Of a stretch of DNA of 64,000 nt, positions 37,845-51,283 are shown piece after piece. The DNA is taken from assembly GCF_000161795.2 (NCBI RefSeq), contig NZ_CP006882.1, forward strand, positions 124,001 through 188,000, written 5' to 3'. Under the pieces are notes generated by a model, which did no database searches, had not been told where the DNA came from, and worked only from the letters and a program-made list of their open reading frames with translations. Each line of letters begins with the position of its first letter. Within the stretch, counting starts at the first letter, position 1. Position numbers and translations under genes: made by a program. The DNA comes from Synechococcus sp. WH 8109 (GTDB lineage Bacteria > Cyanobacteriota > Cyanobacteriia > PCC-6307 > Cyanobiaceae).

Positions 37845-37916
37845 CCCTTCGCAACGCCCAACGCCGTGTTGCCTTGAACCTCTTTTAAGTTCTTCGTAAG
37901 GCAATTGCTCGAAATC

Positions 37917-38630
37917 ATGTCTGTCGCCCTTGCTGCCCAGATCCGGGAAGGCACGAAAAAATCGCACACCATGGCCGAGAACACCGGTTTCGTGAGCTGC
38001 TTTCTGAAGGGAGTCGTTGATAAGGCCAGCTATCGCAAGCTTGTGGCTGATCTGTATTTCGTCTACTCCGCCATGGAGGAGGAGATCGGCAAGCTGACCG
38101 ATCATCCGGTGGTGGGTCCGGTTGCCATGGCTCAGCTGAACCGTCGTGAGGCGTTGGAGCAAGACCTCACCTATTACTTCGGTGACAACTGGAAGGCAGA
38201 AATCAAACCCTCTCCCTCTGCAGCGGCCTACGTAGAACGTATTCACGCTGTTGCCCAGGAGTCTCCCGAGCTGTTGGTAGGTCATCACTACACCCGCTAC
38301 CTCGGTGATCTCTCCGGTGGTCAGATCCTCAAGAACATCGCCCAGAAGGCGATGAACATGGAGGGGGATGCCGGCCTGCGCTTCTACGTCTTCGAAGACA
38401 TCGCTGACGAAAAAGCGTTCAAGACGACATATCGCTCCGCCATGGACATGCTGCCGATCGATCAGGCCATGGCCGATCGCATCGTGGAGGAGGCCAACCA
38501 CGCCTTCCATCTGAATATGAATATGTTCAAGGAGCTGGAGGGTAACTTGGTCGCCGCCATCGGCAAGCTGCTGTTTGGCTTCCTCACTCGCCGGCAGCGG
38601 GCTGGAAGTACTGAATCTGCCGCTGCTTAA
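37917..38630 (+). CDS. ho1: Heme oxygenase (biliverdin-producing)
   Basis: Opens heme to biliverdin IXalpha with ferredoxin, the first step of phycobilin synthesis for phycobilisomes. The 237-residue protein has the proximal heme ligand His17 in KKSHTMAENTGF and the distal helix signature YTRYLGDLSGGQIL. The ATG at 37917 gives the usual N-terminus; four residues could be added by an upstream start. It is the last GC-rich gene before the AT-rich island, which begins within about 20 bases of its stop. Confidence 0.96.
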   Translation: MSVALAAQIREGTKKSHTMAENTGFVSCFLKGVVDKASYRKLVADLYFVYSAMEEEIGKLTDHPVVGPVAMAQLNRREALEQDLTYYFGDNWKAEIKPSPSAAAYVERIHAVAQESPELLVGHHYTRYLGDLSGGQILKNIAQKAMNMEGDAGLRFYVFEDIADEKAFKTTYRSAMDMLPIDQAMADRIVEEANHAFHLNMNMFKELEGNLVAAIGKLLFGFLTRRQRAGSTESAAA

Positions 38631-38648
38631 AGTCAGCTTGGTGGTTCT

Positions 38649-39695
38649 TTGATTTCCTTGCGAGAAATTCGGGTCCTAGTCCCAGGTACTGGGCCACGTT
38701 TTCGTTGTGGAGGTCTGAATGTCGCGAAGCAGACCGCAAGTCTGCTTTCGCAAATTCGAACCACAACGCTTGTTACATATAGAGAGCGAAGCGATAAATA
38801 CCCTTTTTTTGATTCATTGTTGTTAAACGAACAAACTATCCATGATGATTCATTATGGATAGTTTGTTGGGGTTTTGACATTCCTAGGTTGGTAAATCGT
38901 CTTCGCGGAAGAAAAGTTGTTTACCAAGCTCATAGTACTGGATACGGATTTAATCTTCCTCCGAGCGTTCCTATTGTCGCTGTTAGTAGAAATACAATGG
39001 GCTATTGGGGGCATCGTGCACCCAGGAATCCCATATTCTTAATTCCTAATGCACTTGAATCTCAATGGCTAGCAAGAGGAGATCGTAACGGAAGTGTATC
39101 GAGTCGACCAATCGATATTCTTGTTCAAAAAAGAAAGAGTAGTAATTATCTCTTGTACGAATTAGTCCCAGCTTTACGTGCCAAGGGCTTTTATGTAGAG
39201 ATACAGAATGATTGGGTGGATGATTTGGTGCATTTATTTAATAGCACTAAGGTCTTTTTATACGACTCTACTGAACATTGGACTAGAGCTGGTGTGAGCG
39301 AAGGATTTGGTTTACCTCCTTTGGAAGCAATGTCTTGCGGTTGTATTGTATTTAGTAGTTTGAATCATGCCCTTGCAGACACCTTTACGCCTGGCGTCGT
39401 GGGACATCAAATTGGTTACGGCTGTCTATCAAATGACGTGGATAGAATAGCTGCAGCAGTTGCAAATCCTGATGAGTGGAAGCCATTAGAACCTGCTTTA
39501 GATTTTGCATTGAGAGATTTTTCAGAGCCCCTATTCATTGAGAGATGGCGTGCCGTTTTGAAAGAGTTAGATTCTGTAATGCCTACTTTAATTAATAACC
39601 CTCGCCTTTTATTGAAGCCATCCTATGGATTGGCCTTACTTTTGAAATACTTTAAGCAAGCTCTTAGAAGAATTTTAGATTTTTTCGGCTTTTGA
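38649..39695 (+). CDS. Glycosyltransferase (GT4-like, GT-B fold)
   Basis: 348 residues, encoded in strongly AT-rich DNA unlike the neighbours upstream. The C-terminal half has the EX7E-type nucleotide-sugar motif (SEGFGLPPLEAMSCGC) and is preceded by a Rossmann-like region. The N-terminus reads VLVPGTGPRFRCGGLNVAKQ, with a glycine-rich loop. Function is likely transfer of a sugar onto a surface polysaccharide. Start uncertain: TTG at 38649 with a GGTGG nearby, or TTG at 38658; no ATG is available. A perfect 14-base-pair inverted repeat lies inside the gene. Confidence 0.8.
   Translation: MISLREIRVLVPGTGPRFRCGGLNVAKQTASLLSQIRTTTLVTYRERSDKYPFFDSLLLNEQTIHDDSLWIVCWGFDIPRLVNRLRGRKVVYQAHSTGYGFNLPPSVPIVAVSRNTMGYWGHRAPRNPIFLIPNALESQWLARGDRNGSVSSRPIDILVQKRKSSNYLLYELVPALRAKGFYVEIQNDWVDDLVHLFNSTKVFLYDSTEHWTRAGVSEGFGLPPLEAMSCGCIVFSSLNHALADTFTPGVVGHQIGYGCLSNDVDRIAAAVANPDEWKPLEPALDFALRDFSEPLFIERWRAVLKELDSVMPTLINNPRLLLKPSYGLALLLKYFKQALRRILDFFGF
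38830..38868. repeat. Perfect 14-bp inverted repeat inside the glycosyltransferase gene
   Basis: Arms AACAAACTATCCAT (38830-38843) and its exact complement (38855-38868) are separated by 11 bases. No T run follows, so it does not look like a terminator. It lies in the coding region for the segment around NEQTIHDDSLWIVC. Confidence 0.85.
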
Positions 39696-39890
39696 AGTTG
39701 CTAATACTTCACAAAAATCTTGTTCTTGAGAGACGAATTTCTCCTATCCTCGACTTCCAATTGCAAAATCCTTTGCCATGCTTATGGTTTTTATTTTTCT
39801 AGGCACATTGGCCAATCGGTTGGTTAACTGTCTATCAAATGTCAAGGCAAAGGCAGCTGAGCGTAATATGATTTCACTAGTGTCGTCGCT

Positions 39891-41723
39891 GTGTTAAAAG
39901 TATTTGCAAGCGAGACGCTCTATGAGCTAAAAGTTCTTTTTAGGTACGTTGAAAAACAAAGTTTAATCAGGCTTTGGGTAATCATACCAGTATCTATTCT
40001 TTCTGGATTTCTTGATATTGCTACTGTTGCAGTTATAGGTAGGCTCACAGGAACGCTTGTTGGCACTAATCTCATCAACTTATTGCCTGGTGTAAAGGTA
40101 TTTGGAGCTACTCCATATATACAATCTTTGTGGCTAATAGCAATTTTTGTCCTAGTCAACTGGATGCAGTCTGGGGTCCGTTTATTGCTTCGCTTTATGC
40201 AAGAAAATCTTGCAGGAGAATTGTGGCTTGACTTATCGAGTCGAATCTTCAAGCAGACACTGGGTCAGCCTTATGAATATCATTTAACTGGGAATATATC
40301 AGCACTTGCGTCGGATCTACTGTCAAATCTGGATTGTCTCTTGAGGGATATTTTAACTCCGGCTTTGAGAGCTATAAGCTGTTTAATCAGCATTGTATTT
40401 CTGGTTGCTGGAATTTTGTATGTTGGTGGTGGTTCTGCATTTGTATTGATACTATCAATGCTTGTCCTTTATGTAATAATTGGGTATTTGATAAATCCAG
40501 TCTTGCGTAAAGCCTCCAGGCAAAAATTAGTTACGAGAGAGAGATATACCAAACGATTCTTCGAATCTTTCCAGGCAATAGTTGACTTGAAGCTTGGCCT
40601 AAGCGAGCCTTACTTTTCAAGGCGATTTAATCGCTCTACATCAATATTCAAACAATCGGTTGTTAACGCGACAGTTTTTCCCGAGATACCGAGGCTACTA
40701 ATTGAACCCCTTGGCATCTCAATGATCTTTCTTATTGGAGTTGTACCACCAGTTCTATCTGGGCAACAACAAAAAATTATTGAGGTTCTTCCATTTTTAT
40801 CTATATTATCTGTAGGAGCTTTACGTCTTGCAAAACCACTTCAAGACTTTTTCTCTGCAATATCAATTCTCAGAGGGGGATTGCCTGAAATTATGAATAT
40901 AACATTATTACTCGAGAATACTGTGAATTTTCAATCCTCTTCACTGCTTTTTAATAAGACTCCGGAAGGTATTTTCCCTCTAAGATCTATAGGCCTTCGG
41001 AACGTTACTTATAGATATCCAGAAGCAACTAAGAATGCACTTGATAATGTATCCCTAAGTATTCCAGTGGGATCTCGCGTAGCATTTGTAGGTCCTACAG
41101 GTAGTGGAAAAACTACAGCTGCAAATGTTTTGCTTTCATTACTTACTCCTCAACGTGGAGATTTGATCCTTGATGGCATACCTGTGCTTGATGATGAAAT
41201 AACTTCTTGGAATTTATGTTGTGCTCAAGTACCTCAGTCTATAAACTTGTTGTCAGACTCTATTATCTCCAATGTCGCCTTTGGTGTTAATTTAAATGAT
41301 GTCGATGAGGATAAGGTATGGGATGCGCTTGAAGCTGCACAACTTGATGTAGTTGTATCTGATCTTCCTTACGGTTTGTACACACCAATTGGTGACAATG
41401 GTATAAGTTTGTCTGGAGGACAACGTCAAAGGCTAGCGCTAGCAAGAGCTTTTTATAGGTCCGCCAAATTCTTAATTCTTGACGAAGCTACGAGTGCTTT
41501 AGACAATAAAACGGAATCCGAAGTTATCCAGTCTATAGAAATTATTGGAAGAAGATGTACTACCTTAGTTATTGCTCATCGTCTTTCTACTATTCAGAAA
41601 TGCGATCGTATATATGAGTTTGATGCCGGTAAAATTGTTGCCAGTGGTAATTTCGATGAGCTTAAAGACCTCTCATCGAGCTTTAGGCAAATGATCAAAC
41701 TACAATCTTGTACCAATCCTTGA
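39891..41723 (+). CDS. ABC transporter, fused membrane and ATPase domains (flippase/exporter type)
   Basis: 610 residues. The N-terminal half has about six membrane helices (roughly 25-300); the ATPase domain (about 355-605) has Walker A GPTGSGKTT, the signature LSGGQRQRLALARAF, Walker B FLILDEATSALD and the H-loop IAHRLST, all intact. Its form matches MsbA/PglK-like exporters that flip lipid-linked sugars. Its place between a glycosyltransferase and a polymerase-like gene favours an oligosaccharide flippase role (inference). The start is GTG at 39891. AT-rich like the whole island. Confidence 0.88.
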   Translation: MLKVFASETLYELKVLFRYVEKQSLIRLWVIIPVSILSGFLDIATVAVIGRLTGTLVGTNLINLLPGVKVFGATPYIQSLWLIAIFVLVNWMQSGVRLLLRFMQENLAGELWLDLSSRIFKQTLGQPYEYHLTGNISALASDLLSNLDCLLRDILTPALRAISCLISIVFLVAGILYVGGGSAFVLILSMLVLYVIIGYLINPVLRKASRQKLVTRERYTKRFFESFQAIVDLKLGLSEPYFSRRFNRSTSIFKQSVVNATVFPEIPRLLIEPLGISMIFLIGVVPPVLSGQQQKIIEVLPFLSILSVGALRLAKPLQDFFSAISILRGGLPEIMNITLLLENTVNFQSSSLLFNKTPEGIFPLRSIGLRNVTYRYPEATKNALDNVSLSIPVGSRVAFVGPTGSGKTTAANVLLSLLTPQRGDLILDGIPVLDDEITSWNLCCAQVPQSINLLSDSIISNVAFGVNLNDVDEDKVWDALEAAQLDVVVSDLPYGLYTPIGDNGISLSGGQRQRLALARAFYRSAKFLILDEATSALDNKTESEVIQSIEIIGRRCTTLVIAHRLSTIQKCDRIYEFDAGKIVASGNFDELKDLSSSFRQMIKLQSCTNP

Positions 41724-41757
41724 CATAGACTCTTTGTTAAAAGTTTACCGCAACGAG

Positions 41758-43011
41758 ATGCATCTTATGGAAAGATTTTTACAGTTTACGCGACAGAACT
41801 CTGTAGAGATCGCAGCGTTGGTCCTTTCATTTGCTCTTTTTGGTCAAGTATTCTTTTCTTCTATCGTTAACGTGTTGTCTATAGACAATCGCTCGGTAAT
41901 GCTTGTATTTCGTCTGTGCCTAATGCTCATTAATGCCTGTTATATTATATCTTTCTTTTTTCAGAAAGAAGTTTTTTCGATTACTGGTAAATCTTGGATT
42001 AATGTAATTATAGTTTTTTGGGCTTTGTATACGACTAGACTTTTGTATGATGTTTTCTTGGCGAAAGTGAGCCTATCGGTTCCCTTATGGGAACTTCTTG
42101 CATGGGGTTTGGGTAGTTCATTAGTTAGTGGTGTGGCAGCTTGTCTCTTCGCGCCATTTAAAGACCTGGGAAGAGTTTTATACAAAACAATTGAGTTTGG
42201 TGTTCTTTTGCTTGGCATCTCGGTGATTTGCTTTGCGCTTAAGCCAGGATTTGATCAAGGTGGTTTTTACTTAGACCATTTAAATGCTATTACTGCTGCT
42301 AATGCTGGCTGTTCTCTTGTCTTGCTGGGTTTATCCAGTCTTATTGTAAGAGACTATTGTTTGAACCCTTATTGCTACTCCAAATGCATTTCATTCCTTG
42401 GAATAATAATTGGTTCTTTTATCGTAGTTTTCAGTGCTACACGGGGCGCGATTCTGGCAATGCTAATTATTTCGTTGTTTGGAATATGGTCTGCAAAAGG
42501 CTCTTTATTTACCCGATTTTCTTTCTCAACTTCTGGTCTTTTGATAACTTTTTCTATAGGGATATTCGTTGTTGTTGTCCTGTCTAATTCTGGTCTTTTG
42601 CTTGACAAAGTTTTTACCAGCAGGCTGTGGGATACGGTTCTTACAAGAATTGAATTCTGGAAATTGTGCTTCAAAGAATTTTTAACAAGTCCATTTTATG
42701 GCATTGGCTTCAACTTACAGTCATTGCTAGGAAGCCTTGAGATTGAGCAGGGTATTTACTTCCCTCATAATTACTTTTTTGAATCCTTGGCTATTGGAGG
42801 ACTCTTATTGACTCTACCGTTGCTAGCTTGCTTTTTAATTCCAATAACTAAAGTATTCAGTCTTTCTCGTGCGAATTTTTTGCATCTTTCGCTCACTCTC
42901 TTGGCCATGCAAGTAGTAATATATTCTATGCATAATGGCCACTTGGGTGAATATCCTGCTTTTTGGCTTATTCTTGGTCTTGTTGCGGGGAGGGCAAAGG
43001 AATTTAATTAG
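41758..43011 (+). CDS. O-antigen polymerase/ligase-like membrane protein (Wzy/WaaL type)
   Basis: About 417 residues with some 10-12 hydrophobic helices and a long loop between later helices, including RLWDTVLTRIEFWKLCFKEF and GIGFNLQSL, followed by HNYFFESLAIGG. This HN-containing loop after a large extracytoplasmic segment is characteristic of the O-antigen ligase/polymerase family. Start is uncertain: ATG 41758 chosen, TTG 41734 or ATG 41767 also possible. It follows the ABC transporter on the same strand and its stop is 8 bases from that of the convergent GT2 gene. Confidence 0.82.
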   Translation: MHLMERFLQFTRQNSVEIAALVLSFALFGQVFFSSIVNVLSIDNRSVMLVFRLCLMLINACYIISFFFQKEVFSITGKSWINVIIVFWALYTTRLLYDVFLAKVSLSVPLWELLAWGLGSSLVSGVAACLFAPFKDLGRVLYKTIEFGVLLLGISVICFALKPGFDQGGFYLDHLNAITAANAGCSLVLLGLSSLIVRDYCLNPYCYSKCISFLGIIIGSFIVVFSATRGAILAMLIISLFGIWSAKGSLFTRFSFSTSGLLITFSIGIFVVVVLSNSGLLLDKVFTSRLWDTVLTRIEFWKLCFKEFLTSPFYGIGFNLQSLLGSLEIEQGIYFPHNYFFESLAIGGLLLTLPLLACFLIPITKVFSLSRANFLHLSLTLLAMQVVIYSMHNGHLGEYPAFWLILGLVAGRAKEFN

Positions 43012-43019
43012 TATATAAT

Positions 43020-43916
43020 TTATCTGATTTTGGCTTGAGTATATTTTCTTTGAATAAAAATAAAATTGTTAATTAGGCCGGATCTTCCTATGATTGTCAT
43101 AATGCATGTTGGAACATGCTTGAGTCGCGGCTTAAGAATGAGCCGCACAATTGGCTGAACAAGATTTATAAAGTAGATAAAAAAGCCAAGATTATTTCTT
43201 TTGATTAGTTCATATCTCCCCATTCCATACTGCAGTGTTTTTCTTAGCGAGCCCTGGCAAGAATGATGCATGATTCTGATTGTTTCGTCTTTCGCTATAG
43301 GTATGTTCTTTTGCAGGAGTCTTACTAGTAAGTCTGTTTCTTCGTTTGAGGCCCATTCTGTGGCTTTCCCTGGGCCAATATTGGCATCAAAAACATATTT
43401 TAAATCGCTTAATGCCTTCTTCCGTGCAAAAATGTTAGATGTTTCTGCTTTGGCTCTGAATAGATCTAAGACTGTATGTATTTTGATGATGCCTTTTCTT
43501 CTTTGATTGTCTTTACGAATGGTATTTGCGATTTCATCTTTTCCAGCTATTAATACGCCAAGTTCGCTATTTCTTTCAAATCTGTGCATGACATTTTCTA
43601 TTGTATCTTCTCTATAAGTGCAATCGTCGTCGGGGAATGCAATTAGTTCGCCTGTGGCGATGCTTGCTCCAAGATTTCTTGCCTTTGAGGCTCCGGTGAA
43701 TGTGACTTTTGTGTGAACAATATTTAGTTTTTCAGGGCAATCATTTATTAAGCTGTCTAGGAAGCCGGGTGGATTTTGGTCTATAATTATAATTTCTTTT
43801 GGCAGCATCGACTGGCGTCTTACTGAGTGAATAAGCTCTGCTAATTGTTTTGTCCTGCCATATGTGCATATTACTAGTGATAAATCGACCGTACTTGCAT
43901 GCTTCTTGGGAGACAT
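43020..43916 (-). CDS. Glycosyltransferase family 2
   Basis: 298 residues with a GT-A fold. The N-terminus reads LSLVICTYGRTKQLAELIHSV, followed by EIIIIDQNPPG and the nucleotide-sugar motif FPDDDC (DxD type). GKATEWASNEETDLLVRL carries the ED-type acceptor motif. The C-terminus has one or two hydrophobic segments (about 230-260), hinting at membrane association. It is AT-rich and oriented against the other island genes. Probably adds a sugar to the same surface polysaccharide (inference). Confidence 0.85.
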   Translation of the reverse strand: MSPKKHASTVDLSLVICTYGRTKQLAELIHSVRRQSMLPKEIIIIDQNPPGFLDSLINDCPEKLNIVHTKVTFTGASKARNLGASIATGELIAFPDDDCTYREDTIENVMHRFERNSELGVLIAGKDEIANTIRKDNQRRKGIIKIHTVLDLFRAKAETSNIFARKKALSDLKYVFDANIGPGKATEWASNEETDLLVRLLQKNIPIAKDETIRIMHHSCQGSLRKTLQYGMGRYELIKRNNLGFFIYFINLVQPIVRLILKPRLKHVPTCIMTIIGRSGLINNFIFIQRKYTQAKIR

Positions 43917-44230
43917 CGTTTCGGGCTATGGGTTTATAGAGCCTAATTCATTGACGCCATGGTCATGAGGGAACGTATTTTTAATGAGAATTCGTTGCTT
44001 AATTGGTTTGCTTGCCTTTTGGGATCCAGTTTGTTTGGTTGCTTCTTTTTTGAATGTCTTTGGAGATTTCTTAGGATTCTTTTTGAATGCTGGAATTGCC
44101 TAATGACTTCTAGGTGGGCCGCGTGTATCTGGTGTAGAAAGTTGCACTTGCATATTAATTCCGCAATCGCGACACAATTTCCTGCGCAGTTGTCGATAGT
44201 TACTGCACAGCATGCCTAAAATAATTTACT
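43917..44230. other. AT-leaning spacer at the right edge of the island
   Basis: 314 bases between the GT2 gene and pcrA. A plus-strand open frame at 43959-44219 (86 codons) encodes a Cys-, Trp- and Phe-rich stretch with a hydrophobic segment (LLNWFACLLGSSLFGCFFF), matching no family I know; I do not support it as a gene. Promoters for GT2 (minus) and pcrA (plus) are expected. No clear terminator, direct repeat or attachment site was seen. Confidence 0.4.
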
Positions 44231-46615
44231 ATGAGCTTCTTGGATGGCCTCAACGATGCCCAGCGCAGGGCGGTGGATCACTACCAAGGTCCTCTGTTGG
44301 TGGTTGCCGGCGCCGGTAGCGGCAAGACCCGGGCCCTCACCCATCGCATTGCTCACCTGATTGGGGAGCACGGTGTAGATCCAGCGCAGATTCTGGCCGT
44401 CACATTCACCAACAAGGCCGCTCGCGAAATGAAGGAGCGGCTTGAGCTGCTCTTGGCCCAGAAGCTGGCGCAGAGTCAGTACGGCCAGCCCTGGAGCACT
44501 CTGCCGGCGGTGGAGCAGCGTCAGTCGCGTTCGCGCATCTACCGCGAAGTCACCAAAGAACTCTGGATCGGCACCTTCCACGCCTTATTTGCGCGGATGC
44601 TCCGCTACGACATCGACAAATTCCAGGACTCCGAAGGACTCACCTGGACCAAGCAGTTTTCGATCTACGACGAAGCTGATGCCCAGAGCTTGGTCAAGGA
44701 GATCGTCACTCAGGAACTGCAGCTGGATCCCAAACGCTTTGACCCCAAGAAGACCCGTTGGGCGATCAGCAACGCCAAAAACCAGGGATGGCTGCCCGAC
44801 CAGTTTGAGGCCAACGCCGAAGGGCAGCGGGGCAAGCTCACCGCCGATGTCTACCGGCGTTACCGCAAGGCATTGGCGGCAAACAATGCCCTCGACTTTG
44901 ACGATTTGCTGCTTCTCCCGGTGCAGCTCTTGCAGCAAAACGAGCAGGTGCGCAGCTACTGGCACCGTCGTTTCCGTCACGTTCTGGTGGATGAGTATCA
45001 GGACACCAACCGCACCCAGTACGACCTGATCAAGCTGTTGGTGACCGATGGCCAGGAACCGCAGGATTACGACGACTGGGCAGGGCGTTCGGTGTTTGTG
45101 GTGGGTGACGCCGACCAGAGCATTTACAGCTTCCGGGCTGCAGATTTCACAATCCTGATGGGCTTTCAGGACGATTTCGGTGATCAGGCTCCGGATGAGG
45201 CCACGCGCACGATGGTGAAGCTGGAAAAGAATTACCGCTCCACCGCCACCATCCTTGAGGCCGCCAATGCGCTGATTTCCCACAACAGCGAACGGATCGA
45301 CAAAGTGTTGCTCCCCACGCGTGGTGAGGGGGAATTGATCTCTCTCACCCGCTGTGATGACGAAATCGCTGAGGCGGAGGCTGTGGTGCACCGGTTGCGC
45401 ACGATGGAGGCGGCCAATCCCGAGCTCAGCTGGGGTGACATGGCTGTGCTTTATCGCACCAATGCCCAGTCCCGTGCGATCGAGGAATCGCTGGTGCGCT
45501 GGGGCATCCCTTACATCGTTGTGGGGGGACTGCGCTTCTACGACCGGCGTGAGATCAAAGATCTTCTGGCCTATCTGCGGCTGCTGATCAACCCTGCGGA
45601 CACCGTCAGTCTGCTGCGGGTGATCAATGTGCCCAAGCGCGGCATAGGCAAGACCACGATCCAGCGGCTCACCGATGCGGCCAATCAATTGGGCATTCCG
45701 CTCTGGGATGTGGTGAGTGACCCTGAAGCGGTGCGTTCCTTGGGTGGTCGTTCCGCCAAGGGGCTGCTGCAGTTCTGCGATCTGGTGAACGATCTCCAGT
45801 TGCGCAGTCATGAGGTGACTCCCTCGGAACTGATTCAGCAGGTGATGGAGAAAAGCGGTTATGTCAGCGAGTTGATCGCTGATGGCACCGATGAGGCCGA
45901 GGAACGGCGTCGCAACCTGCAGGAATTGGTGAACGCCGCTCTTCAGTACCAGGAGGAGAACGAGGAGGGTGATCTGGAGGGATTCCTGGCCAGTGCAGCA
46001 CTGGCCAGTGATGCCGACAGCAAAGACACCGCCGCGGATCGTGTCACCTTGATGACGCTGCATAGCAGCAAGGGGTTGGAGTTTCCTGTGGTCTGCCTGG
46101 TGGGTTTGGAGCAGGGACTGTTCCCCAGCTATCGCTCCCTCGACGATCCGGCATCACTGGAGGAGGAACGACGTCTTTGCTACGTGGGCATCACCCGGGC
46201 GAAGGAGCGTTTGTTCCTCTCCCATGTCAGTGAGCGGCGTCTTTGGGGTGGGATGCGCGAGGCGGCGGTTCCGTCGGTGTTTCTTTCGGAGCTGCCGGAG
46301 GCCCTGGTGCAGGGGGACATTCCCCAGAGTTGTGGAGTAGCGCTTCGGCGTGAGCGGCGCCTGGAACGGCTCACCCGCGTGGATCGCGACAAACCGTTAT
46401 CGGCTCCAGCGAATGCGGTGCGGCGACGTCAGGCAGGGCCAGCTCCCGGTCGGAGCTGGCAGGTGGGTGACCAGTTGATGCATGCCAGCTTCGGTGTTGG
46501 GGAGATCACCCATACCTTCGGTAGTGGTGAGAAGGTCTCAATTGCGGTCAAGTTTGCAGGGATGGGCCCCAAGATCCTGGATCCGCGCCTCGCCCCAATC
46601 GAGCCTGTTGGTTGA
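44231..46615 (+). CDS. pcrA: UvrD/Rep-family DNA helicase (PcrA-like)
   Basis: ATP-dependent 3'-5' superfamily 1 helicase for repair and replication restart. The 794-residue protein has Walker A GAGSGKTRALTHRI (near residue 30), Walker B HVLVDEYQDTN, motif III VVGDADQSIYSFRAAD, motif IV near KNYRST, motif V TLMTLHSSKGLEFPVV and motif VI CYVGITRAKERL. The C-terminal Tudor-like domain (HASFGVGEITHTFG) is typical of PcrA. GC content returns to the genome norm here, marking the right border of the island. Confidence 0.93.
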   Translation: MSFLDGLNDAQRRAVDHYQGPLLVVAGAGSGKTRALTHRIAHLIGEHGVDPAQILAVTFTNKAAREMKERLELLLAQKLAQSQYGQPWSTLPAVEQRQSRSRIYREVTKELWIGTFHALFARMLRYDIDKFQDSEGLTWTKQFSIYDEADAQSLVKEIVTQELQLDPKRFDPKKTRWAISNAKNQGWLPDQFEANAEGQRGKLTADVYRRYRKALAANNALDFDDLLLLPVQLLQQNEQVRSYWHRRFRHVLVDEYQDTNRTQYDLIKLLVTDGQEPQDYDDWAGRSVFVVGDADQSIYSFRAADFTILMGFQDDFGDQAPDEATRTMVKLEKNYRSTATILEAANALISHNSERIDKVLLPTRGEGELISLTRCDDEIAEAEAVVHRLRTMEAANPELSWGDMAVLYRTNAQSRAIEESLVRWGIPYIVVGGLRFYDRREIKDLLAYLRLLINPADTVSLLRVINVPKRGIGKTTIQRLTDAANQLGIPLWDVVSDPEAVRSLGGRSAKGLLQFCDLVNDLQLRSHEVTPSELIQQVMEKSGYVSELIADGTDEAEERRRNLQELVNAALQYQEENEEGDLEGFLASAALASDADSKDTAADRVTLMTLHSSKGLEFPVVCLVGLEQGLFPSYRSLDDPASLEEERRLCYVGITRAKERLFLSHVSERRLWGGMREAAVPSVFLSELPEALVQGDIPQSCGVALRRERRLERLTRVDRDKPLSAPANAVRRRQAGPAPGRSWQVGDQLMHASFGVGEITHTFGSGEKVSIAVKFAGMGPKILDPRLAPIEPVG

Positions 46616-46659
46616 GGCGAGTAATCTCAAGGGGGCAATCCCATGCGGATGCGTGATGA

Positions 46660-47895
46660 TTGAGCTGCCGACCGAAGCACCACGCATTGGATCTGCCGGG
46701 TGTGCCGCCATCATTAGCGTCTGACTTGCGTGGTGCTGCTCAAGACGCAGGAGTGACGCGGCTAGCCCTCGTGGGTGGAGTGGTCCGAGATCTGCTGCTG
46801 CATCACCTGCATGGTGTTCCATGGGCCGGTGTTCCCGATCTGGATTGGGTTGTCGAGGGGGATGCTCTGGCCCTAACGGACGTGCTGATGCAGCGCTGTG
46901 GTTCGCAGCGGGTCACGGATGTGCAGCATTACGGGGCTTACGGGACAGTTGCACTGCGCTTCGATGGAATCCCTGTTGATTTGGCGTCAGCCCGGCGGGA
47001 GATCTACCCGGCTCCTGCTCAGAATCCCAAGGTGGAACCCGGCACGTTGGAGCAGGATCTTCTCCGGCGGGATTTCACCATCAATGCCATGGCTATTGAT
47101 CTCATGGCTGAGCAGTTGGTTGATTTCCATTCGGGTCAACGCGGGTTGACCGACAAGCAATTGACACTGCTGCATGACCACAGCATTCGGGATGACCCCA
47201 CGCGCGTGATCAGGGCAGCGCGCTATGCGGCTCGGCTGGGGTTCACGTTGGATGAAAAAACTCAGGACCAAATCACCCGAACCATTCAGGCCTGGCCCTG
47301 GGCTTGGTCCACCAGCGCTTCAGCCACGGCGGCCCCACCGGCGCTCTCGACCCGTCTGAGGATGGAACTCCACCGTTTGTTCCAGCATGAACCTTGGGCA
47401 CAGGCCATCGCTTGTCTGCAGGAATGGCAGGCGTTGTCGCTGATTGATCCGAGCCTGCAGGGCGATCCGCTACTGATGCGGCGTCTGCACTGGGCTCAGC
47501 GGCTGGAGCTTCCCCTTGTGCTGGCTTTGGTGTCCGGTACCAGGCATCCGTTGCGCGTTGCGCAGCGACTTCAGCTTCCGGGTCAGGAGCAGCAGTGGTT
47601 GCGCCAGATGCTGGATTTGAAGCAATGGCTTCTGGCGGATGCCCCGCGTGTGTCGTCGCTCCCGTCGGTTTGGTCAGAGGCCTTGGAGGCACGTGGTGCG
47701 AAGGCTGAAAGCGTGGCTCTGCTGATCTGCCTGATGCCGGTTCAATGGAAACCCCTTTTGCGCTGGTGGGGGCGCTGGCGGAAGATCAAATCGCCGAAGA
47801 CCGCTCGTCAGCTCCTGGACTCTGGCTGGAGTTCTGGTCCTGCTTTGGGACAGGAGTTGAACAGGCTCCGCCATGAGGCTCAGGACAAGTCGTGA
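46660..47895 (+). CDS. tRNA nucleotidyltransferase / poly(A) polymerase family (CCA-adding type)
   Basis: A 411-residue class II nucleotidyltransferase. The palm has LVGGVVRDLLL and the catalytic DLDWVVEGD, then LLRRDFTINAMA and the RNA-binding RVIRAARYAARLGF. Its role is adding CCA (or A) to tRNA 3' ends, consistent with tRNA-Arg in the window not encoding CCA. The start is TTG at 46660, as no in-frame ATG is near. Its stop overlaps the GTG start of the broken glycosyltransferase as GTGA. Which of CCA or A activity it has cannot be told from sequence alone. Confidence 0.86.
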   Translation: MSCRPKHHALDLPGVPPSLASDLRGAAQDAGVTRLALVGGVVRDLLLHHLHGVPWAGVPDLDWVVEGDALALTDVLMQRCGSQRVTDVQHYGAYGTVALRFDGIPVDLASARREIYPAPAQNPKVEPGTLEQDLLRRDFTINAMAIDLMAEQLVDFHSGQRGLTDKQLTLLHDHSIRDDPTRVIRAARYAARLGFTLDEKTQDQITRTIQAWPWAWSTSASATAAPPALSTRLRMELHRLFQHEPWAQAIACLQEWQALSLIDPSLQGDPLLMRRLHWAQRLELPLVLALVSGTRHPLRVAQRLQLPGQEQQWLRQMLDLKQWLLADAPRVSSLPSVWSEALEARGAKAESVALLICLMPVQWKPLLRWWGRWRKIKSPKTARQLLDSGWSSGPALGQELNRLRHEAQDKS

Positions 47896-49226
47896 TTAAC
47901 AACAGTTGGCTATTTCTCCTCCCTTTGATTGGCAGTGCCTTTGCACTTCAAACCCTTTTCTGATTGATGCCACGTCCTTGTGGAGTGATGAGCTCTACAG
48001 CGTTGGTAAGATTTTTCAGCCCAGTCTGGAAGCTCTTGTTGAGATGCCGCGTGAGGAAACTCATCCACCTTTTTATTGCTTTCTTCTGTGAATTTTCGGG
48101 AAGCTGATTGGTCAAACTCCGGTCACAAGGAGGCTGTTGTCGAGGTGTGCCTATTGTTTGGGCGGAGTTGTGATGGTGCGCCAGACACGCGCCATTGGTG
48201 GTCACAACATGCAGGTTTTGACGGTGGCTGGTCTGCTTGCGTTTTGTAGTCCTTGTCCGGTCCGTTTCGCCATTGAAGGCAAGAGTTATGCCTTGCTACT
48301 GCTTTTGGTGGCTCTGGCGTGGTGGTGGCGGCGGTCAGAACGTCCCTCGCTGTACGCGCTGGTTTCTGCCTAGGCAGGAATTACCTATTTTTATGGTCTG
48401 TTTGTGGTGCTTGCCGCCGCTGTCTGGGATGGCCTGACGGGCCCGACCCGGTTTGCTGCGGCGGCTCTTATGGCGGCATTGCCTGGCCTGGATTGTTTAT
48501 GCCGCTGACTATTTGTTCAGCGTCAGGGCAGCCAGCTGGATTGGTCCCCTGGATTACGCCCTGTTGGAGGAGACCCTGGCCTGGGGGTTTGGGCTTTGGC
48601 CGCTGCCCAAGTTGGGATTGATTCTGCTGCTGCTTGTGGTGGTGTTAAGTCGTTGGGGAGGGCTGCACCGGCGTTCTTGGCCTGAGACTGGTGTCCTTGA
48701 TCGAAGCAGCTTGATCCCTTCCCTGTTGATGGTGGTTGGAGTGGTGGTGGTGTCGTTCGTGAAGCCGATGGCCTTCAGCCGTTATTTCGTGGTGCTGGTG
48801 CCGGCTGTGCTTCCTGTTCTTGCGGTTCAGTTCGGTGCTCTGAACCTCAATCGCCTTGGCCGCCGCTGTGCCGTTGGGGTTCTTGGCGTGATGTTGGCCA
48901 GTTGGTGGGGGCCGGGTTTTTTTGAACTGGATCCTGCTCTGGGGGGAGTGCGTGAACAGGATCAGTTCCGTCTGATCAGCCAGCGCACTGGTGGCTTCGT
49001 GGAGTCTTATGGCCCGTGGGCCCGTTTGCTCAATCTCAGCGATCGAATGGAAGTTGTCATGGGTCGGATCCCATCGGATCCCGTGCCCTGGGGTGATACC
49101 GACGATCTGGAGAAACGTTTGGCCGCGCCGCCATTGCCTTCGGAGCTCTGGCTGGCCAATAGTGGAACTCCATCGGCCATGGAGCGCAAGCTCAAACCCT
49201 TGCAATCATTAGGTTGCGCAGGCTAG
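47892..49226 (+). pseudogene. Broken GT39-like membrane glycosyltransferase (four lesions)
   Basis: Pieces in two frames line up as one membrane glycosyltransferase. A GTG at 47892 overlaps the previous stop and opens a hydrophobic stretch in frame 0; it shifts to frame 2 between about 47937 and 47961. There SLWSDELYSVGKIF and EETHPPFYCFL match the GT39 catalytic loop, ended by TGA at 48089. The same frame resumes with LGGVVMVRQTRAIGGHN, ended by TAG at 48371, then GITYFYGLFVVLAA. A second shift near 48440-48460 enters frame 0 for the last 257 codons, with VSFVKPMAFSRYFVVLVPA. About 445 codons in total. Too many lesions for one sequencing error. Confidence 0.82.
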
Positions 49227-49255
49227 TTACCAATGCGAACAACGGGCGAACGACC

Positions 49256-51283
49256 TCAGTCATGCGCGGCTGTTGTGTTGCCGATCTGAAGCCATGGGCC
49301 GTTCCGAGTGAGTTGAGTGGCGGCTTTGCTGGTGCAGGCCAGCAGCAAGGGGCCACAGGTCTGTGGGTCCACCAGCAGTTCGAGCAAGGCCGGGGACTCG
49401 TGGTCTCTGAGCTGAACCGGGCCTTCGAGCCATCGCCAGGCAGCACGGTTGGAGGGGGCCAGCGTGCTGGAGATGCCGCGTTCGAAGAGCTCAAGTGCAC
49501 CGGGGTACGCAGGGATGGCAGAACCCTCCAGTTCGACGGTCAGTCCTGGACTGTTCTGGAGCATTTCGCCCAGATGCCCAAGCAGGCCGAAACCGGTGAT
49601 GTCGGTGCAGGCGTGAATGCCCCCGCGGATCGGCTCGATCTGTTCAAGCAGCGTGTGCTGGCTGCAGGCCATGGTCTGCAGCGCAGTATCCAGATCAGCT
49701 GCCTTGGTGGCGCCACTCATGGCCCCTGCAAACAGCACTCCAGTGCCCAGGGGGCGACTGATCAGCAGGGCGTCTCCTGGGCGCAGTCCCGTTTTCAGCC
49801 AGGGTGATTGGGGGCTGTTGCCATTCACCGTGAGGGTGATCTGCACCCCGAGGCTGGCCGGCAGCGGTGAGGTGCTGCGGGATTCCATCGTGTGTCCACC
49901 TATCAGCTCGGCGCACTGTTCATCCAGAACCGAGCGGATGCCTGCCAGGGTCTGCACCAGCAGCTCCTGCTGTTCGTCGGCTGAAACCATCGGCAGCGTA
50001 ATCGTTGCCATGGCGCTGGAGACCGGGGCACCGCAGGCCCAGAGATCAGAGCAGGCGTGCAGGGCCGTCAGACGGCCATTGAGCCAGGGGTCACTCACCA
50101 GGGCTGGAAAGCCATCTACGCTCTGCAGGAGTCCTGGCTGCCCAGCGAGATGGGCGGCGTCTTCGGGCTGTCCGCCAAGCCCCACCCGCTCCAGTGATGC
50201 TGCCAGGGATTGGGCCGGCAACTTGGCAGCGCAGCCCCGGCAGGCCATCGGTGCTGAATCGGCCATCGCTGCTGGCTGTAGAAATCCATTCATGAAGGCC
50301 CGATCAATGCGTTGCTTCAGGTGCCAAAGCAGTCGGGATGGCCCCAGTCGCCAGCCGCCCCAACGCGCCCAGGCGGCATCTTCATGACTGCCGATGAGCT
50401 GCAGAGCCTTGCGCTGGGGATGCCAGGGCCGCAGGGGTTGCCCCTTGCAGGCCGCTTCCAGATTGATGGCCAAGGGGCGTCCGGCGCGCACCGCCCACAC
50501 CCCAGACGCCGGCCGGGGTGATGCGCTGATCACGGCACAGTCGCCGCTGGCGAACAGGCATGGATGGCCTTCGACCCTCAGGTGGCGATCGGTGCGGACC
50601 CGGCCATCGGGAGCTAAGGGCAGACCAGTCGTCGCCAGCCAGGCGGGCCCCTGGCTTCCCGTGCAGAGCAGGCTGGGTCCGTTGTGGTGGTTATCGTCGT
50701 CGGTGACTTCGATATTGGCCTTTTGCAGCACGCGTTGGACGGCTAGATCCAGTTGTCCCCTGCGCTGTTGCAGCTTGAGCTCGCGTTTTGGCCAGCGACG
50801 GCGCAGGGCCAGGACCACCTCCAGGCCGGCAGCTCCCGCTCCGATCACCCGCAGTGGATTGGGATCGCTTGGGTCTTCGCTTTCGAGAAAGGAAAGCGAG
50901 GCTTCCAACGGTTTGATTGGGACCCCTGCGGCGCTCGGTCGGCTCACCGCTCCCACATCCAGGCTGAGCCAATTGAAGTGGAGTGCAGGGCGGTCGCGAA
51001 GGTGCAGAAGGTTTTGCTCAGGATTCAATCCGGTGATTTCTGCTTCCACGAAAGCCACCCCGGCTCGGTCACAGAGCTGTCGCAGGTCGAGGGCGAGCTC
51101 GTCGCGTTGATACAGCCCGGCGATCAATCCCGGCACCATGCCTGAATACAGGGCTGTGCTGCAGCGGTTGACCAGGGTGATGCTCTGCGGTGGGCGTCGT
51201 TCCGGCTGCATGGCCCATCGTTTGAGCAGAAGCGCATGGCTGTGGCCGCCGCCGGCTAGAAGCAGTGTCCCGCCGGTCGTCAT
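49256..51283 (-). CDS. selD: Flavin oxidoreductase-SelD fusion (selenide, water dikinase)
   Basis: A two-domain protein of 675 residues. Residues about 1-335 form an NDH-2-like pyridine nucleotide-disulfide oxidoreductase (FAD motif LLAGGGHSHALLL, NAD(P) region VIGAGAAGLEVV, and FASGDCAV). Residues about 340-675 are SelD: the active-site pair is Cys351 and Lys354 in ACRGCAAKL, followed by DLWACGA and GGHTMESRS. SelD makes selenophosphate from selenide and ATP. The catalytic residue is Cys, not selenocysteine. The ATG at 51283 overlaps the galE stop as ATGA; upstream in-frame starts inside galE are unlikely. Confidence 0.9.
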   Translation of the reverse strand: MTTGGTLLLAGGGHSHALLLKRWAMQPERRPPQSITLVNRCSTALYSGMVPGLIAGLYQRDELALDLRQLCDRAGVAFVEAEITGLNPEQNLLHLRDRPALHFNWLSLDVGAVSRPSAAGVPIKPLEASLSFLESEDPSDPNPLRVIGAGAAGLEVVLALRRRWPKRELKLQQRRGQLDLAVQRVLQKANIEVTDDDNHHNGPSLLCTGSQGPAWLATTGLPLAPDGRVRTDRHLRVEGHPCLFASGDCAVISASPRPASGVWAVRAGRPLAINLEAACKGQPLRPWHPQRKALQLIGSHEDAAWARWGGWRLGPSRLLWHLKQRIDRAFMNGFLQPAAMADSAPMACRGCAAKLPAQSLAASLERVGLGGQPEDAAHLAGQPGLLQSVDGFPALVSDPWLNGRLTALHACSDLWACGAPVSSAMATITLPMVSADEQQELLVQTLAGIRSVLDEQCAELIGGHTMESRSTSPLPASLGVQITLTVNGNSPQSPWLKTGLRPGDALLISRPLGTGVLFAGAMSGATKAADLDTALQTMACSQHTLLEQIEPIRGGIHACTDITGFGLLGHLGEMLQNSPGLTVELEGSAIPAYPGALELFERGISSTLAPSNRAAWRWLEGPVQLRDHESPALLELLVDPQTCGPLLLACTSKAATQLTRNGPWLQIGNTTAAHD

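Follow-up and report, generated by a model that had tools for sequence, protein, structure and literature searches.

How did a compact set of AT-rich glycan genes come to lie between ho1 and pcrA in Synechococcus sp. WH 8109? The window that we analysed is the whole stretch of 64,000 nucleotides at positions 124,001-188,000 of the complete genome (G000 in our sample; 2,111,515 bases), with an overall GC content of 60%. Directly past the stop codon of the heme oxygenase gene ho1 (37905..38630, plus strand; PF01126, E 1.6e-83) the GC content falls from 0.53-0.57 to about 0.40, and it is 0.58-0.60 again at the start of the helicase gene pcrA (44231..46615, plus strand; PF00580 and PF13361). Of all 5.5-kb stretches in the window, the one with the lowest GC content begins at 38,701, with a value of 0.388 against a median of 0.617 for stretches of this length. 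The four genes in between are all open and closely packed and have a GC content of 0.379-0.411; their GC3 is 0.29-0.35, compared with 0.66-0.81 in five flanking genes. Thus, the AT-rich four-gene block that an earlier note on this DNA had described was confirmed (GC 0.38-0.41, sharp borders on both sides), and the GC and codon-usage check proposed there upheld its low GC and GC3 against the flanks.

The block opens with a GT4-like glycosyltransferase gene (38649..39695, plus strand; PF00534, Glycos_transf_1, E 3.6e-9), followed by a fused ABC exporter and candidate glycolipid flippase (39891..41723, plus strand; ABC_membrane, PF00664, and ABC_tran, PF00005), a Wzy_C membrane protein that is a polymerase or a ligase (41734..43011, plus strand; PF04932, E 2.9e-11) and, on the opposed strand, a GT2 glycosyltransferase (43020..43916, minus strand; PF00535, Glycos_transf_2, E 1.4e-21). 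The Pfam assignments agree with the set for building and exporting a glycan that the earlier note had recognized, the functions of the block proteins being putative throughout. Its statement that no integrase, tRNA or border repeat marks the block also held: Pfam showed no integrase-type gene among the four block genes, the single tRNA of the window sits at 23.7 kb, and the repeat search of 38,300-44,500 gave merely repeats of 16-21 nt, none bordering the block. Within the GT4 coding sequence, a near-perfect palindrome with arms of 19 nt and a 1-nt loop (38830-38868) was observed, the left arm of which is absent from aligned relatives, a pattern as after a template-switch mutation.

Is the block an insertion, or does it occupy a site that carries such genes anyway? 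In a sample of 34 genomes of the genus, ho1 was matched in 27 and pcrA in 31 (some of the latter being distant helicases alone), and the interval could be read in 19 genomes, G000 included, with both genes on one contig and in a 20th, G027, on two contigs. A GT4 homologue follows ho1 in all 20 (in the other 19, it is 54-65% identical to that of the window), and the GT4 gene is in turn followed by an ABC homologue in all 20 (39-72% identity; in G027 across the contig break). An empty ho1-pcrA junction was found in none of these genomes. We therefore rejected a foreign insertion into an empty site, and the word 'inserted' in the earlier note did not survive; as GT4 and ABC homologues stand after ho1 in 20/20, the site is an old variable surface-glycan locus, at which the block has taken the place of another allele. 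The four-gene AT-rich layout itself is rare in the genus (3 of the 20 genomes read), in keeping with the earlier note. By match coordinates, G000 and G028 have an interval of 5.6 kb, and that of the remaining 17 measures 10.6-15.7 kb. The ABC exporter of the window is designated B-type, and most relatives carry an A-type exporter. Pfam scans of A-type loci of the own genus (L070 and parts of L068 and L077) showed GT4 enzymes and sulfotransferases, with kdsA in L070 and L077, and the ABC gene has a GC content of at most 0.51 in 14 of the 17 A-type loci of the genus (L070, L062-L078), most neighbouring genes lying at 0.55-0.64. Among 18 stretches of other genera, drawn around an ABC relative, 13 have the order ho1-GT4-ABC, with a minimal form consisting of ho1-GT4-ABC-pcrA and nothing else in G144, and 5 carry the ABC gene without adjoining ho1 and GT4 (G088, G090, G036, G085, G038).

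An AT-rich GT4-ABC pair is present at this site in G000, G027 and G028 of the own genus and in G152, G296, G316 and G066 of a second genus (g34). In the ABC tree (36 rows), these seven loci fall into a single clade that spans both genera (100/100). In the GT4 tree (33 rows), which contains long rows (G001, G056, G066, G152) and a make-up flagged as odd in G027 and G028, they form one clade together with three other g34 copies (99/98), apart from the remaining own genus. The flanks tell a different story: the AT-rich label is forced to change three times on the HO1 tree and twice on the PcrA tree (which includes 5 of the 7 AT-rich loci), and both ho1 and pcrA remain with those of the host genus. 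Similarity to relatives stops at the ho1 stop codon; at the other end, the AT-rich intergenic stretch that runs up to the right joint (43917..44230) shows no clear similarity up to a point some 10 bases short of the pcrA ATG. Among G000, G027 and G028, dS is 0.25-0.67 for ho1 and pcrA and from 1.2 to saturated for the four block genes; the pair G000-G028 has values of 0.57 and 0.25 in the flanks versus 1.9 to saturated in the block. Trees, joints and dS together thus indicate that the block has been exchanged, and probably repeatedly. In A-type control pairs, dS is also raised (G002-G023: flanks 0.11 and 0.17, GT4 0.23, ABC 0.35; G007-G002: flanks 0.43 and 0.46, GT4 0.66, ABC 1.05), so that part of the excess in the block may reflect fast local evolution. 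What looks like a separate, independent exchange is seen in G012. Its A-type ABC protein groups with G264/G270 (99/95) and its CCA-type protein with G169 (100/100), these three being genomes of the second genus; its interval contains a Wzy_C gene and lacks kdsA.

A donor of the AT-rich block did not emerge: among 400 genomes of the family, a sample of a larger group, ABC relatives outside the two genera reach at most 52% identity. A contig scan with a general ABC-ATPase pattern gave one close relative among the matches listed (L130, 51%). As to carriage by phages, the ABC protein has matches in 509 phage records; all lie below 60% identity, and one of them extends over 80% or more of the protein (28%). 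The GT2 protein has one such record (26%), and the GT4 protein is without a match in IMG/VR. The idea that the B-type locus is always compact was tried and rejected: G152 has an interval of about 8.7 kb and G066 one of 7.7 kb, that of G296 reaches 30.6 kb, and that of G316 did not close. A carbamoyltransferase gene (L112:10715-12586) is part of the long AT-rich locus in G296.

Does the exchange involve more than the block itself? We compared the KDO genes around pcrA in good genomes (at least 90% complete and at most 5% contaminated; 19 of the own genus, 24 of the second). In the own genus, kdsA (TIGR01362) scores above the cut-off inside the interval in 15/19, and G002 has a second copy elsewhere in its genome. 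The same 15 genomes carry kdsB (TIGR00466) above the cut-off about 0.8-1.6 kb to the right of pcrA. The other four, G000, G027, G028 and G012, have no match for kdsA and none for kdsB bar one of 26 bits in G012, and these are the only ones among the 19 with a Wzy_C gene within the interval. To the right of pcrA, the A-type stretches that were read (6 of the 15 such genomes) all carry a gene for a 236-aa protein together with kdsB, kdsC and kpsF. At this place the window has a gap of 44 bases (46616..46659) before a gene for a CCA-type tRNA nucleotidyltransferase (46660..47895, plus strand; PF01743, E 8.7e-20), and none of the four genes was found there in the 4 KDO-less genomes (the 64-kb window and 10-kb stretches of G027, G028 and G012), the absence of kdsC and kpsF referring to the stretch right of pcrA only. 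The 236-aa protein encoded before kdsB (L222:575-1285; 89-98% identical to that of G002 in the other five) has a sub-threshold GT8 match only, and we regard it as a possible partner in the KDO pathway. In the PcrA tree, G015 and G016, which are 79% and 77% complete, adjoin the three B-type genomes (91/83); both have kept kdsA and kdsB by pcrA, and the KDO-less state therefore looks derived.

In the second genus, 18 of the 24 good genomes have kdsA above the cut-off, and all of these 18 except G286 (17) have kdsB as well. Its AT-rich genomes, namely the good G152, G296 and G066 and the 80% complete G316, have neither gene, nor do its A-type genomes G243, G258 and G311, where the A-type label was assigned by search score. 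A strict mutual exclusion of kdsA and Wzy_C holds for 19/19 genomes of the own genus, yet it fails as a rule: in 5 of the 9 A-type loci of the second genus that were read, kdsA occurs together with another kind of Wzy_C, with a weak sixth case in G286. Taking the good genomes of both genera together, kdsA accompanies the A-type ABC in 33/37 and the B-type in 0/6, a difference with a Fisher p of 3.4e-5 that is uncorrected for kinship and goes back to few underlying events.

The ABC protein combines membrane and ATPase domains in one polypeptide. It is related to MsbA, HepA and PglK, lies under every curated NCBIfam cut-off among the families listed (PglK, NF050066: 225.2 bits, cut-off 1000 bits), and has its best PDB matches in ABCB4 and ABCB1, with PglK 5c73 and 6hrc lower down. 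By analogy with Wzk of H. pylori, it is likely a flippase. The earlier note had seen no Wzx or Wzz in the block and suspected an unusual export route. The first point stands for the models used, PF01943 (Wzx) and PF02706 (Wzz), both silent genome-wide in G000, with PF13440, PF14667 and PF01554 outside the search. The second is not specific to the island, as an ABC gene occupies the site in 20/20 genomes of the genus that were read and PF01943 matches none of the 34. This model matched 13 of 14 control genomes and was silent in Synechococcus elongatus, the sole cyanobacterial control, and may thus miss cyanobacterial flippases. PF02706 matched 5 of the 34 genus genomes and 8 of the 14 controls.

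For the Wzy_C protein, we have to weigh two activities. Its Wzy_C domain (43.8 bits, cut-off 31.7) comes without a match to a curated NCBIfam family. We ran the structure prediction that the earlier note had proposed on this one of the four proteins; it supports a WaaL-like fold and does not tell ligase and polymerase apart. The model (mean pLDDT 69.3) aligned to WaaL 7TPG in VIA with Z 21.4 (rmsd 5.1, 353 residues aligned), compared with Z 12.7 to 9.0 for FtsW and RodA, and gave nothing in Foldseek at E of 0.001 or below. It is possible, if on the doubtful side, that the protein is an O-antigen ligase (WaaL) working as in the Wzk and WaaL route of Helicobacter, where a finished chain is flipped and then ligated. 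In favour of a ligase, 7TPG is also the single PDB sequence match (E 2.5e-7), and this route was shown by experiment according to the accessible part of PMC2841628. However, Wzy and WaaL have a common fold, so that the model fits both activities alike; each of the 19 good own-genus genomes has at least 2 further Wzy_C proteins outside the interval, and so ligase candidates exist elsewhere; and the copy at the locus is only 42-55% identical among the three sister genomes G000, G027 and G028, a strong divergence between alleles that is expected of a polymerase. These last two observations tilt the balance toward a polymerase.

Taken as a whole, we consider it probable that the block represents one allele at a hypervariable surface-glycan locus, a cassette that was exchanged across genera and that lacks the KDO genes. 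Crossovers in the conserved flanks would swap the cassette, and would have done so more than once. In the B-type allele, a lipid-linked glycan would be assembled in the cytoplasm by the GT4 and GT2 enzymes and flipped by the ABC protein in the manner of Wzk or PglK; on the outer side, the Wzy_C protein would polymerise it or attach it to its carrier. The glycan exported by A-type strains would need KDO for its assembly. More tentatively, and with considerable doubt, we speculate that marine picocyanobacteria have one surface-glycan slot served by interchangeable routes. The A-type route would depend on KDO and have its CMP-KDO genes around pcrA; the B-type route would be KDO-free, with a PglK-like ABC flippase that passes repeat units to a Wzy-like polymerase without Wzx or Wzz. 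Exchange across genera would switch between the two and take along the KDO genes to either side of pcrA.

Other readings account for parts of these data. The insertion of a foreign four-gene island into an empty ho1-pcrA junction, as the earlier note had it, would suit the sharp change in composition at both ends and the open, tightly packed reading frames, but is extremely improbable given that no junction is empty in 20/20 genomes and that neither an integrase-type gene nor a nearby tRNA is present; that interpretation as a whole is partly supported. Very unlikely, too, is that AT-richness and divergence reflect a local mutation bias and fast vertical evolution with no exchange. Low GC of the ABC gene in most A-type loci and the raised A-type dS speak for such a bias, and against it the ABC and GT4 trees conflict with the flank trees with starred support. 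We take more seriously that the link to KDO is incidental, kdsA and kdsB having been lost for other reasons as mere neighbours of the exchanged cassette; this is quite possible, since independent events are few, three A-type genomes of the second genus are also without kdsA, and kdsA and Wzy_C do occur together in that genus. The skewed distribution of kdsA between the two ABC types, with its Fisher p not corrected for kinship, argues against an incidental link, as does the fact that kdsB, kdsC and kpsF to the right of pcrA are gone as well.

The preferred reading, an exchanged allele of a variable glycan locus, has several precedents. Glycosyltransferase-rich genomic islands are known in marine Synechococcus (Dufresne 2008, PMC2441476), and in the accessible part of that report it is suggested for island genes that the surface glycans may determine which phages and grazers take these abundant cells. 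The block resembles these islands in its deviating composition, in glycosyltransferases as the leading known function, in strain-variable content and in homologous flanks; it differs in that the GT4-ABC core is constant here and whole alleles are common to two genera, and the locus is not named in that part of the report. With Wzk and WaaL of H. pylori it shares a single-polypeptide ABC flippase replacing Wzx and a WaaL-fold protein, as far as the consulted part of PMC2841628 goes, although the ABC protein of the window stays below the PglK cut-off (225 of 1000 bits). Pelagibacterales O-chain clusters are likewise strain-variable glycan loci of an abundant marine bacterium, but are, in the excerpt available of PMC11898729, shared mostly inside one clonal frame, whereas the AT-rich ABC clade spans two genera. 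Similar to the Kps-type capsule route with its Kdo linker (PMC4594306, in part), A-type relatives have kdsA, kdsB, kdsC, kpsF and an ABC exporter at one locus; unlike that route, the exporter is a fused PglK/MsbA-like protein and not KpsM plus KpsT, and the window allele is without KDO genes (KpsC and KpsS lay outside the comparison). The same cyanobacterial survey, as far as accessible, reports KpsS/KpsC, KpsF and KpsU in few strains and doubts a poly-Kdo linker. While kdsA and kdsB are present in most of the genus, the LPS of two marine Synechococcus strains, WH8102 and CC9311, was reported to be without KDO in the part of PMC4515613 at hand.

This kind of locus is thus already known; new are the exchange across genera and the link to KDO. 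In titles and abstract openings of the literature, subscription papers being mostly out of reach, we found no account of the locus as a cross-genus cassette or of a KDO link. The KDO-less B-type strains are natural controls, so that the use of KDO can be tested by strain comparison, and the locus offers a fixed place where surface types could be read from genomes.

Further differences lie to the right of pcrA. The CCA-type gene of G000, G027 and G028 is 55-60% identical to the copies of six A-type genomes and 46% to that of G012; pcrA beside it is 91-94% identical in the comparison with relatives. In several relatives, a CCA-type gene lies inside the glycan locus. A paralogue in the glycan loci was considered and dropped: G264, G270 and G012 show no second copy right of pcrA, and hence the CCA gene was probably relocated. 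Downstream, at 47906-49293, the window contains the remnant of a gene of about 480 aa, spread over three frames and with no Pfam match at E 0.01. This gene is open in G002, G020, G022, G001, G007 and G012, is broken differently in G027 and G028, and is thus decayed in 3/3 B-type genomes of the genus.
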